From Pseudomonas sp. Teo4 (GTDB lineage Bacteria > Pseudomonadota > Gammaproteobacteria > Pseudomonadales > Pseudomonadaceae): a stretch of DNA of 64,000 nt. Each line of letters starts with the position of its first letter. Positions within the stretch are counted from its first letter, which is position 1. Of the stretch, positions 23,203 to 57,617 are shown piece after piece. The stretch lies in NCBI RefSeq assembly GCF_034387475.1, contig NZ_JAXCIL010000001.1, forward strand, positions 2,728,001 through 2,792,000, read 5' to 3'. The notes under the pieces were generated by a model. That model did no database searches, was not told the DNA's origin, and saw only the letters and a program-made list of their open reading frames with translations. Position numbers and translations under genes: made by a program.

Positions 23203-23296
23203 GGCCTTATCGCCGGCAAGCCGGCTCCCACATGGGCTGCGCAGATTTTGAGATCACTGCCGTACCTGTGGGAGCCGGCTTGCCGGCGATGAGGCC
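23203..23296. repeat. REP pair (REPIN) B
   Basis: 30-nt arms 23203-23232 and 23267-23296 are inverted with one mismatch. The core is GCCGGCAAGCCGGCTCCCACA. Located between divergently transcribed small genes. Confidence 0.9.
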
Positions 23297-28465: not shown

Positions 28466-28959
28466 TCCCAGGCAAATCAAGGCCTCGACCAAAGGCCTTG
28501 AAACTGACCAGCAAGTCGCATTAGACCAAAGATGTAGTAAGTAGAAAAAAGCACTACAAAACATTTGACAGGCACTTTTTCCCAAGGGCATGATGGCCTC
28601 GCTCCCGCTAATCAGAGGCCCTGGCAAGGGTCTTCGAAGCGTGCTCCTCCCACCCCTGGAGGCGCTTCGTGTCCATACGGCCCACAAGGCGGTTCGACGG
28701 GATTGCGACTGCAACGAAGAAGTTGTCCCGAGGGACGGAAGCGCATCACCGCAGTCACCAGGCAAGCCATGTCGCACCGCAGCAAGGCATCCACGAGCCA
28801 ACCTGCCGCCACATCTTGTCCATGCTGCAGCCCCCTTCCCCTTCGAGCCTTCCTCGTCAGCCGCGCAATCCCCGCCGAGCAGGACCGCCGTCAGGCTTCT
28901 GATCGCTGCCCGAGCATCAGCACAATTACCCCAAGATCGATGCGACGAGGTTTATTTCC
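28466..28959 (+). other. 494-bp gap and long leader before aceA
   Basis: No gene is convincing here. A short palindrome, AAGGCC...GGCCTT (28479-28499), follows the secretin-like gene and could be a weak terminator. A promoter candidate lies at 28565-28594. If that promoter is used, the aceA mRNA carries a leader of about 350 nt. Open frames through it (for example 28590-29228) have no ribosome binding site and overlap aceA. Confidence 0.6.
28565..28594 (+). promoter_or_regulatory. Sigma-70-type promoter candidate for aceA
   Basis: A perfect -35 box TTGACA (28565-28570) and a 4-of-6 -10 box CATGAT (28589-28594) are separated by 18 bp. No other good promoter is seen nearer to aceA. Confidence 0.45.
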
Positions 28960-50990: not shown

Positions 50991-51052
50991 CACGGCAAGC
51001 CGGCTCCCACAAAGACACTGCTGCACCTGTGGGAGCCGGCTTGCCTGCGATT
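50991..51052. repeat. REP pair (REPIN) D
   Basis: Left copy GGCAAGCCGGCTCCCACA and right copy TGTGGGAGCCGGCTTGCC are inverted around a short spacer between the convergent TonB receptor and AI-2E transporter genes. It probably also ends transcription. Confidence 0.85.
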
Positions 51053-54705: not shown

Positions 54706-55704
54706 ATGCTGCGCGCAACCGCCCTGGCCCTGGCCTGCCTGATGACCGGCCCGGCCCTCGCTGCCGAAACGCCCACCTACGGTAAACAGCTCGAAGGCTT
54801 CCAGTACCCCTACCCGCTCAAGCATTTCGACTTCAACTCCCAGGGGCAGCGCCTGCAGATGGGCTACATGGACGTGCCCGCAAAAGGCCAAGCCAATGGC
54901 CGCAGCGTGGTGCTGATGCACGGCAAGAACTTCTGCGCCGCCACTTGGGAAACCACCATCGATGCCCTGAGCCAGGCGGGTTACCGGGTCATTGCCCCCG
55001 ACCAGGTCGGTTTCTGCACTTCCAGCAAGCCGGCTCACTACCAGTACAGCTTCCAGCAATTGGCCGACAACACCCACGCTCTGCTTGATCAACTGGGCGT
55101 TAAGCAAGCCGTCATCCTTGGCCACTCCACTGGCGGCATGCTCGCCACCCGTTATGCGTTGATGTATCCGCAACAGGTCGAGCGCCTGGCGATGGTCAAC
55201 CCCATTGGCCTCGAGGACTGGAAAGCCCTGGGTGTGCCTTACCGGACGGTCGACCAGTGGTACCAACGTGAGCTCAAGCTCGATGCCGAAGGCGTGCGTA
55301 ATTACGAGCGCAAGACCTACTACGCCGGGCGCTGGAAGCCCGAGTACGAGCGCTGGGTGCAGATGCTGGTGGGCCTGAACAAAGGGCCGGGGCATGAAGT
55401 GGTTGCGTGGAACTCGGCGCTGATCTACGACATGATCTTCACCCAGCCGGTGTATCACGAGTTCAAGGACCTGAAGATGCCGACGTTGCTGCTGATCGGC
55501 GATCAGGACACCACGGCCATCGGCAGCGATATCGCACCGCCGGATGTGAAAGCGAAACTGGGCCACTACAAGGTGCTGGGGCCGCAGGTGGCCAAGATGA
55601 TCCCGCAGGGTGAACTGGTGACGTTCGCCGGGCTTGGGCATGCGCCGCAGATCGAGGAGCCAGAGCAGTTTCACAAGGCGCTGATCGGCTGGCTGGGGCG
55701 TTGA
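54706..55704 (+). CDS. Exported alpha/beta hydrolase
   Basis: 332 aa. A signal peptide (about 1-20, ending ALA-AE) is followed by an alpha/beta-hydrolase fold: oxyanion region VLMHGKNFCAATWE, nucleophile GHSTGG, and catalytic His in LGHAPQIEEPE near the end; GDQDTTAIG supplies the acid. A periplasmic esterase or epoxide-hydrolase-like enzyme of unknown substrate. I chose ATG 54706 with GGAG 7 nt upstream; the longer frame overlaps the previous gene. Confidence 0.87.
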   Translation: MLRATALALACLMTGPALAAETPTYGKQLEGFQYPYPLKHFDFNSQGQRLQMGYMDVPAKGQANGRSVVLMHGKNFCAATWETTIDALSQAGYRVIAPDQVGFCTSSKPAHYQYSFQQLADNTHALLDQLGVKQAVILGHSTGGMLATRYALMYPQQVERLAMVNPIGLEDWKALGVPYRTVDQWYQRELKLDAEGVRNYERKTYYAGRWKPEYERWVQMLVGLNKGPGHEVVAWNSALIYDMIFTQPVYHEFKDLKMPTLLLIGDQDTTAIGSDIAPPDVKAKLGHYKVLGPQVAKMIPQGELVTFAGLGHAPQIEEPEQFHKALIGWLGR

Positions 55705-55738
55705 TCCGGAAGCTCCAGCGATCTCAAGGCGGCGCAAT

Positions 55739-55820
55739 ACCTGTGGGAGCCGGCTTGCCGGCGATGAGGGCGACTCGGTGCATGGCACCGGCTGCGCCGG
55801 TAATCGCTGGCAAGCCAGCT
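55739..55820. repeat. REP pair E, second copy split by an insertion
   Basis: The left REP (55739-55769, CCTGTGGGAGCCGGCTTGCC) is intact. The inverted right REP runs TAATCGCTGGCAAGCCAGCT to 55820, where it breaks off; its remainder CTCCCACAGGG reappears at 56990-57000. The IS110 element lies between the two halves. Confidence 0.85.
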
Positions 55821-55832
55821 TGTATGGTAGGA

Positions 55833-55994
55833 CTTGAAGGGGTGGTGGGACGACATGCCGGCTTCTGACTGTGACAGCAGTACAGACCGTGGGAGACATC
55901 GCCCCACCCCTTCCACCAAAGCGCCGATAAAGAATGCATCGTTTGCAAGCGACGATAGAAGCAAGCCAGCGCCTCTTGGTGAAACCCCTTCAAG
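55833..55994 (+). ncRNA. Candidate bridge RNA of the IS110 element
   Basis: Stem-loop 1: GAAGGGGTGG (55836-55845) pairs perfectly with CCACCCCTTC (55904-55913). Its loop has GCCGGCT (55857-55863), identical to the left part of the REP core with CT, and 25 nt later GTGGGAG (55889-55895), the reverse complement of CTCCCAC. These fit left and right target guides. Stem-loop 2: CACCAA (55914-55919) pairs with TTGGTG (55976-55981); inside, AAGAAT and GCAAG partly match the element's own joined ends, as donor guides would. CTTGAAGGGG (55833-55842) can instead pair with CCCCTTCAAG (55985-55994), closing the whole RNA. Confidence 0.65.
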
Positions 55995-56023
55995 CCGAAA
56001 AACCATAACGTGGAGAACCGCCC

Positions 56024-56977
56024 ATGGCAATGCAGGTAAGCAAGTTGATCGTGGGTGTGGATGTTGCGAAAGCGGAACTGGTTATTCATCACGACGGTAG
56101 TGATGAACTGAGCAAACTGAAAAACGCAAAACCCGAGATCAAGCGGTGGCTCAAGCAACAGCCCCGCAATACTGCCATCGCCGTTGAGGCGACAAATGTC
56201 TACCACTTGGACTTGGTCGAGCTAGCCCATGGTGCGGGTCTTGAAGTCTACGTAATTGATGGTTTTCAACTGAGTAATTACCGGAAAAGTGTTGGGGGGC
56301 GAGTCAAAACCGACCCTTCCGATGCCAGGCTGTTGTCTCGTTTTCTAAGAAATGAAGGCGAGGATCTTCGTCCGTGGAGTCCGCCACCCGCTGTCTACGG
56401 CAAGGTTCAGAGCCTACTTCGACGTCGGGCTGCCTTGGTGGCCGCCCGGACCGCAATGACTCAGAGCTGGGCTAACGAAAGTCTGCTGAAAAGCGCCTTC
56501 GAGGCGTTCGTCAAATCGATAGACCGTTTGGATCTGTTGATACAAAAAAAACTTAAAGAAGTGCTCCGCGAAGCCGGACTGCAAGAACAAGTTGCCCGTT
56601 GCCAAGCAGTGGAAGGTATTGGCTTTCTTACCGCCACGGCATTGGTCATGGCCTTTGTTCGAGGCGAGTTCAGAAGCAGCGACGCTTACATCGCATTTCT
56701 GGGAATGGACTTGCGAGTGAACGACTCGGGACAGACGAACGGACGTCGTCGCCTGACCAAGCGGGGATGCTCTGAGATCCGTCGCTTGCTGCACAACGCG
56801 GCAATGGCTGCGAGCAGGTCATCGGCTTGGAAAGATGTTTACGAGCATCATCGAAACAGCGGCAAAGCAACCACTCAAGCCCTGGTCATCCTGGCCCGTA
56901 AACTCGCTCGTGTAGCATTCGCCCTGATGAAAAATCAGGACGAATACGTCACTAAAGGCGGGAAACTGGCTTGCTGA
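56024..56977 (+). CDS. IS110-family transposase/recombinase
   Basis: 317 aa. An N-terminal RuvC-like DEDD domain: D in VGVDVAKAEL, E in AVEATNVYHL, and the D-x-x-D pair in KTDPSDARLLS. The C-terminal transposase_20 domain has VEGIGFLTATALV and the conserved serine region (GRRRLTKRGCSEIRRLLHN). Full length and uninterrupted, so the element is probably active. Codon use is less GC-rich than its neighbours, which fits recent acquisition. Starts ATG 56024, GGAG upstream. Confidence 0.93.
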   Translation: MAMQVSKLIVGVDVAKAELVIHHDGSDELSKLKNAKPEIKRWLKQQPRNTAIAVEATNVYHLDLVELAHGAGLEVYVIDGFQLSNYRKSVGGRVKTDPSDARLLSRFLRNEGEDLRPWSPPPAVYGKVQSLLRRRAALVAARTAMTQSWANESLLKSAFEAFVKSIDRLDLLIQKKLKEVLREAGLQEQVARCQAVEGIGFLTATALVMAFVRGEFRSSDAYIAFLGMDLRVNDSGQTNGRRRLTKRGCSEIRRLLHNAAMAASRSSAWKDVYEHHRNSGKATTQALVILARKLARVAFALMKNQDEYVTKGGKLAC

Positions 56978-57035
56978 GAACCATAGAATCTCCCACAGGG
57001 TGCAAGCTTTCAGACCTGGGGCGAGACAGTTGCTC

Positions 57036-57617
57036 CTAACGCGACCAGACTTGCGCTTCAGTCCAGCCAAGCTCGGCAAAATCCACCGCCCGCAACCCAG
57101 CTTCTTCCTCCAGGAAGAACTCATCCAGCTGCGGTGGCCGCACCGCCGTATCGCTAAGCATCGCGTGCACCTGACCACGATGATGAATCTGATGTTCGAA
57201 CAGGTGTGACAACAGGCGTAACCGCGGTTCGCGCTGCATTCGCTCGGGGCGGGCAATATTCACGTAACGGCCCAGCTGATCATCGCGCAACCCTTGGCAG
57301 TAGCTGATCAGTCGATGGTCGGCCTGGGCCTGTTCGGCGTGCAGGTCGGCGCAGGTGGCGAAGGGTTGTTCCGGCTCGAAAAAGCGCTCTGCATCCAGGA
57401 CCGGTGTTTCACCGCGCTGCTCGCATTCGAGCATGTGCAAATAGAACCAGTCCACCGTCAACAGGTGGTTGAGGGTGGCCTTGATCGACGGGAAGAAGCT
57501 GCAACGGGGGGCGACGAATTCGTCCTGGGTCAGTTGCAGGCAAGCCTTGTACAGGCGGTGGTTGGCCCAACCATTGTTGTAGGCCTGGGTCAGCAGATGA
57601 TGCGACAACGGCTCCAT
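57036..57617 (-). CDS. DinB-family putative metal-dependent protein
   Basis: 193 aa, helical-bundle DinB/YfiT type: AYNNGWANHRLY at the N terminus, TLNHLLTVDWFYLHML with the first metal-binding His, and SHLFEHQIHHRGQVHAML with the later pair. Often thiol-transferase-like; substrate unknown. Its stop is 45 nt from the right end of the IS element. The next gene upstream, zapE, is 14 nt away. Confidence 0.88.
   Translation of the reverse strand: MEPLSHHLLTQAYNNGWANHRLYKACLQLTQDEFVAPRCSFFPSIKATLNHLLTVDWFYLHMLECEQRGETPVLDAERFFEPEQPFATCADLHAEQAQADHRLISYCQGLRDDQLGRYVNIARPERMQREPRLRLLSHLFEHQIHHRGQVHAMLSDTAVRPPQLDEFFLEEEAGLRAVDFAELGWTEAQVWSR

Follow-up and report, generated by a model that had tools for sequence, protein, structure and literature searches.

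A stretch of 64,000 nucleotides from Pseudomonas sp. Teo4 (here called the window) carries what is, with high probability, an autonomous IS110-group element whose left end specifies a two-loop bridge RNA that guides insertion at the CT of REP repeats. Here, the left end would encode the RNA, which would bind the transposase. In the first loop of that RNA, two guides would pair with GCCRG-CT-CCCAC, the left one on the bottom strand and the right one on the top; this target would be the conserved edge of the REP repeats of the host. The second loop would pair with the junction of right and left ends in an excised circle, and recombination at the CT would then put the circle into the REP, with no target bases lost. 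The circle, the expression of the RNA, the complex, and the strand exchange would be those expected from homology with IS621. The original prediction, which spoke of a natural RNA-guided recombinase programmed for REPs, draws its support from the protein family, the CT cores, and the covariation between guides and targets; the ends, the REP target, the fold, and the guide-target match are likewise established from sequence.

The element and its insertion sites

The insertion sequence occupies positions 55819-56989 of the window (plus strand), 1171 bp with one CT core counted. Its ends were placed by comparing the three copies in the genome and those in relatives. The left end is about 200 nt long, the right end only 12 nt. 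Between them lies tnp (56024-56977, plus strand), encoding an IS110 transposase/recombinase of 317 amino acids that scores above the cut-offs of PF01548, PF02371, and NF033542 ("IS110 family RNA-guided transposase") and matches the PDB chains of IS621 (8wt6) and ISCro4 (9t56). In the ISCro4 alignment, residues D13, E55, D97, D100, and S235 fall on the DEDD and serine positions, whose catalytic roles are as named for IS621 (PMC11208158; for this and every other paper cited, statements refer to the part of the text that was available). The protein thus has the DEDD RuvC-like domain and the Transposase_20 domain with its catalytic serine that mark the IS110 group. The layout is also that of this group, with a long left end, a short right end, and a predicted RNA upstream of tnp. 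The IS1111-group layout, where the RNA lies downstream of tnp and the right end is long, is not seen here, the right end being 12 nt.

Judged by the edges of the copies in this genome and in relatives, the CT core lies at 55819-55820 and 56990-56991. The left core (plus strand) follows the left half of an interrupted REP (55806-55818); the right core and the right half of that REP (CTCCCACAGG) lie at 56990-56999 (plus strand), as comparison of the copies indicates. An intact, inverted partner REP, recognized by a 12-mer match, adjoins the interrupted one at 55743-55754 (minus strand). When the flanks are rejoined at the CT without the element, they read GCCRG-CT-CCCAC over the copies in this genome, with the REP letters GCTGGCAAGCCAG-CT-CCCACAGG. 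The genome (G000) holds three element copies in all, the other two 99% identical to the window copy, and all three are inserted in REPs at the same CT.

Just inside the ends lies a subterminal inverted repeat, TATGGT at 55823-55828 (plus strand) and ACCATA at 56980-56985. Its perfect arms are 6-7 nt long in 44 of 49 genomes and 4-5 nt in the other 5. The fifth pair (-9/+8) is C-G in 27, A-T in 19, and C-C in 3, a change from C-G to A-T at one pair among relatives. The joined ends show no strong circle-junction promoter; the best candidate has 8 of 12 consensus letters, a count made without a shuffle control. No relative was found in plasmid records at E 1e-40.

The REP core that had been noticed elsewhere in the window is indeed there: exact GCCGGCTCCCAC occurs at 23220-23231 (+), 23268-23279 (-), 50999-51010 (+), 51029-51040 (-), and 55743-55754 (-). 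With at most one mismatch allowed, the window has 8 matches to the REP 12-mer, where 1.17 are expected. The genome has 476 exact sites for the predicted 12-mer, against 2 for a control with reversed letters. The element had been said to be inserted at just such a CT. As to the core CT and the flanks that rejoin to a REP, this stands; the site used by the window copy, however, is GCCAG-CT-CCCAC, not GCCGG. Here, base 6 of the guide (G) makes an rG:dT wobble. Because base 6 is G, GCCAG sites would be reached by such pairing, and the genome has 259 of these sites with CTCCYAC (control 12). The other two copies occupy GCCGG sites.

The predicted bridge RNA and its guides

The two-loop bridge RNA is predicted at 55833-55994 (plus strand), from its fold, two alignments (A1 and A2), and a model (R1). 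An outer helix, P1, pairs 55833-55843 with 55984-55994; the span that was originally proposed for the RNA coincides exactly with the stretch that this helix closes. P1 encloses a first loop, which holds both target guides, and a second loop, which holds the candidate donor guides. The fold of 55819-55995 has an energy of -65.7 kcal/mol, against -51.8 for shuffled sequences (z -3.84), and none of 200 shuffles was as good. In the minimum-energy fold of the RNA alone, four base pairs form between the two target guides.

Model R1, for which 19 of these left ends were used, matches all 20 carrier genomes searched, with 84 matches; the match in G091 is partial. The single copy there (L022) has a left end that lacks most of the second (donor) loop, and its guide matches poorly. 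The register that RNAalifold gave to the first-loop stem on alignment A1 fitted two classes of stem poorly, and the stem was omitted from R1 for that reason. A search for solitary bridge RNAs in this genome returned three RNAs for three tnp genes. At the gathering threshold, Rfam places no bridge-RNA family on the window, which means that no curated family reaches that threshold and nothing more. Rfam does place, above its gathering score, an SrbA small RNA (a regulator of biofilms) at 28611-28844 (plus strand).

The left target guide, AUGCCGGCU (55855-55863, plus strand), is recognized by its sequence and its covariation with targets. It equals the top strand of the GCCGG target, CT included, save for a mismatch at its second base. 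The right target guide, GUGGGAG (55889-55895, plus strand), is complementary to CTCCCAC. The two were expected in one loop, and GCCGGCT (55857-55863) and GTGGGAG (55889-55895) do lie 25 nt apart in the first internal loop. The reading of these guides by the rules of IS621, as specifying GCCGG-CT-CCCAC, also holds, with exceptions: the target guides fit insertion sites in the geometry of IS621.

The donor guides are candidates. The left one, AAAGAAU (55929-55935, plus strand), is placed by alignment and, on the model of IS621, by its location in the second loop; it matches ATAGAAT of the right end (56983-56989) at 6 of 7 letters, with no match at the core. The right one, AAGCAAG (55959-55965, plus strand), comes from the alignment and pairs with CTTGT of the left end through one G:T wobble. 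On fold and alignment, it replaces the hairpin sequence GCAAG, which had been considered for the same role. The fit of the donor guides to the joined ends is thus partial, and donor sequences are too constant for a covariation test. Positions for handshake pairs of the IS621 style could also be accommodated in the predicted RNA: A55896, next to the right target guide, could pair with donor T56989, and C55966, next to the right donor guide, with a target G. Over 166 copies, the handshake base and target base 7 are C-G in 155, G-C in 6 (all in G080), U-C in 4, and U-G in 1. In five copies from G004 and G214 (L028, L092, L136-L138), the handshake base is U, not C, and the guide AAGCCCG stands in GCCCC-type sites in four.

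A promoter-like site on the minus strand (56030-56002) overlaps the ribosome-binding region of tnp, placed like the Asr9 promoter of ISPpu9. It has 9 of 12 letters, and it is the one such site found in 55700-57060, where shuffles of the region give a mean of 0.3. A transcript from it would begin near the predicted 3' terminus of the bridge RNA and would run antisense to that RNA. Were ISPpu9 of similar build, its Asr9 would be antisense to a bridge RNA.

Guides and targets among relatives

At E <= 1e-80, the transposase finds matches in 49 of 398 genomes of the genus, the present one included; at E <= 1e-60, a second search found them in 19 of 194 genomes, again with the present one included, and in 1 of 61 genera. 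The named loci found with the protein number 12, all from Pseudomonas. From 176 loci, a motif parser extracted 170 unique copies, spread over 51 genomes or named contigs and including the three of this genome; L010, L013, L039, L135, and L168 have no parsed left end. One locus pair (L024/L042, G066:C45:124220-126700) consists of two element copies in tandem, about 1350 bp apart. A listing of insertion sites across relatives, which had been suggested as a check, gives CT as the left core in 170 of 170 unique copies, where the search motif itself demanded the T and not the C, and a right flank that starts with CT in 165 of 165. That flank is CTCCCAC in 150 copies, CTCCTAC in 14, and CTCTCAC in 1, and is not available in 5.

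Left guides match the sites of their own elements better than those of others. Over the 51 genomes, with one unit per genome in the shuffles, the mean match is 5.77 of 7 against 4.78 when shuffled, and 0 of 10000 shuffles reach it. The same is true with G:T and U:G wobbles accepted (6.18 against 5.50; 0 of 10000), with small offsets allowed for both the data and the shuffles (0 of 10000), and with shuffling confined within element classes (5.80 against 5.00; 0 of 20000, for 49 genomes and 153 of 161 copies usable). Copy by copy, the left guide in register has no exact mismatch in 75 of 170, one in 59, and two or more in 36. For guide positions 2, 3, 5, and 6, mutual information between guide and target peaks on the diagonal; position 4 shows a tie, and at positions 1 and 7 the diagonal is not the highest. 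In only 27 of the 51 genomes does the in-register guide outscore every other 7-mer of the left end.

The right guide could be scored in 146 copies, the other 24 of the 170 being excluded because the parse lacked the right guide, the right flank, or both. It is fully complementary in 132, has one wobble in 8, and has one mismatch in 6, all from G080. In G094, all seven copies have both guides suited to an unusual site, GTTCG-CT-CCTAC (UAGUUCG with AAGTTCG, and GUAGGAG with CTCCTAC); outside G094, GUGGGAG meets CTCCTAC through a wobble in seven copies. The poor fits are in G214 and G004 (a mismatch at base 7), G439 (two positions), and G261 and G091, which are bad.

These genomes, of course, are related by descent. 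A tree of the transposases from 50 genomes requires 22 or more changes of the guide 5-mer. Among 14 phylogenetically independent pairs, chosen greedily and scored exactly in register, 7 had the better match to their own site, 2 to the site of the partner, and 5 were equal (p 0.18). Three looser scorings gave 6-2, 6-2, and 5-2 (p 0.29-0.45), and per-position covariation tests that correct for relatedness were not significant. We therefore regard the matching of guides to sites as firm, but repeated re-aiming within lineages as likely and not proved.

An alternative holds that the transposase itself recognizes the REP, and that the guide-like letters of the left end arose by chance or were captured from a REP. 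REP-like letters are, after all, common in this genome, in 24 of the 51 genomes some other 7-mer does at least as well as the left-guide window, and the tests corrected for relatedness are weak. Such a view is nevertheless very improbable, given a guide-target match that beats all shuffles, even within element classes, two guides that jointly fit the unusual site of G094 in seven copies, and the requirement of IS621 for its RNA in recombination in vitro (PMC11208160).

It is also unlikely that the left-end structure serves mainly to regulate the translation of tnp, where it would be met by an antisense RNA. This is what is reported for ISPpu9, which has a structured 5'-UTR of 244 nt and an antisense RNA of about 180 nt, Asr9, that lies over that 5'-UTR and whose overproduction raises transposition (PMC8450116), and the minus-strand site at 56030-56002 would suit such a role. 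Regulation would, however, leave both the matching of targets and the partial match of the second loop to the element ends unexplained; it can, of course, coexist with a guide role. Finally, the window copy is decidedly unlikely to be a dead relic, as the three copies have open frames, conserved ends, and proteins 99-100% identical. The preferred reading is still that of an element guided by its bridge RNA.

Host REP types and known systems

The guides also vary with the REPs of their hosts. A census counted seven 12-mer REP types in 16 genomes, chosen from the 49 carriers to span the guide types; the REP types were selected after the targets had been seen, and, in their right halves, two of the patterns accept either C or T. 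In 12 of the 16 hosts, the REP type nearest to the guide is the commonest of the seven (permuted mean 2.9; 0 of 20000). The 5-mer is perfect in 10 of these 12; G320 matches 4 of 5 letters, and G439 3 of 5. The mean share of the guide's nearest type is 0.586, against 0.182 when permuted (0 of 20000). The four exceptions are G066 (a fit by wobble only), G070 (where the guide's type is second commonest, 30 against 54), G214 (27 GCCCG against 260 GCCCC), and G458 (a fit only with a shift); G039 is a near-tie (656 against 643).

The closest relatives are instructive here. G292 and G320 have transposases about 88% identical to that of the window, and left guides that differ by two or three bases: AUGCCCGAU in G292 and AUACCCGAU in G320, with AUGCCCGAU also in G096. 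The left ends of these three and the window have a mean column identity of 91%. Their differences cluster at the left guide, though the stretch close to the start and the loop of the first hairpin also vary. In G000, there are 476 GCCGG and 35 GCCCG sites; the respective numbers are 11 and 525 in G292, and 8 and 315 in G320. This comparison across species suggests that the guide drifts toward the version of the REP that is most abundant in the host. Lineages would then persist when point changes keep the left guide matched to an abundant REP type. We lean, with some reserve, to the view that natural re-aiming of the lineage across Pseudomonas, through one base change or a few in the left guide, has let it follow whichever REP type dominates in each host while REPs come and go. 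If true, the RNA address of a mobile element would be keeping pace with host repeats that form a mobile family themselves.

The relatives also form a natural series in which guides vary while the proteins stay related, with tens to more than 1000 candidate targets in each host counted. Such a series is useful for learning which mismatches a bridge RNA can tolerate and how the targets of RNA-guided elements shift during evolution. Further, because REPs are abundant and extragenic, these guides provide landing addresses at many sites outside genes.

The novelty implied for a recombinase programmed for REPs is smaller than first supposed, the principle having been published already. Tobes and Pareja (2006) found that 7 of 7 copies of ISPpu9 and 7 of 7 of ISPpu10 had entered putida REPs at a single position and with a repeat of 2 bp (PMC1525189). 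Bridge RNAs followed in 2024. Durrant (2024) has ISPpu10 among six elements with predicted guides, drawn in Extended Data Fig. 10c, and covariation over thousands of elements (PMC11208160). Siddiquee (2024) describes a seekRNA of ISPa11 for REPs and one case of natural re-direction (PMC11187229). The point added here is the tracking of the host by the guide; among the literature matches listed, as judged by title and start of abstract and in a scope mostly outside subscription journals and preprints, none concerned guides that follow host REP types.

With IS621 and ISCro4, the element shares its protein family and catalytic residues. With IS621 it also shares a long left end, a CT core, a two-loop RNA upstream of tnp, the guide logic, and ATA/TAT subterminal repeats (PMC11208160, PMC11208158). 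It differs from both in its target sequence and in an outer helix that closes its RNA, a feature not described in the available text of those two papers. The right target guide of IS621 has 4 nt, against 7 nt here, with longer ones reported in some relatives; subterminal repeats of 2-3 nt are reported for the IS110 group, against the 6-7 nt of most genomes here (44 of 49). ISPpu9 and ISPpu10 of P. putida KT2440, compared by published description only, are alike in belonging to the IS110 family and inserting into REPs (PMC1525189). ISPa11, of the IS1111 group, likewise has RNA-guided insertion into Pseudomonas REPs, but its RNA lies downstream of tnp, and its guides come in the reverse order (PMC11187229).
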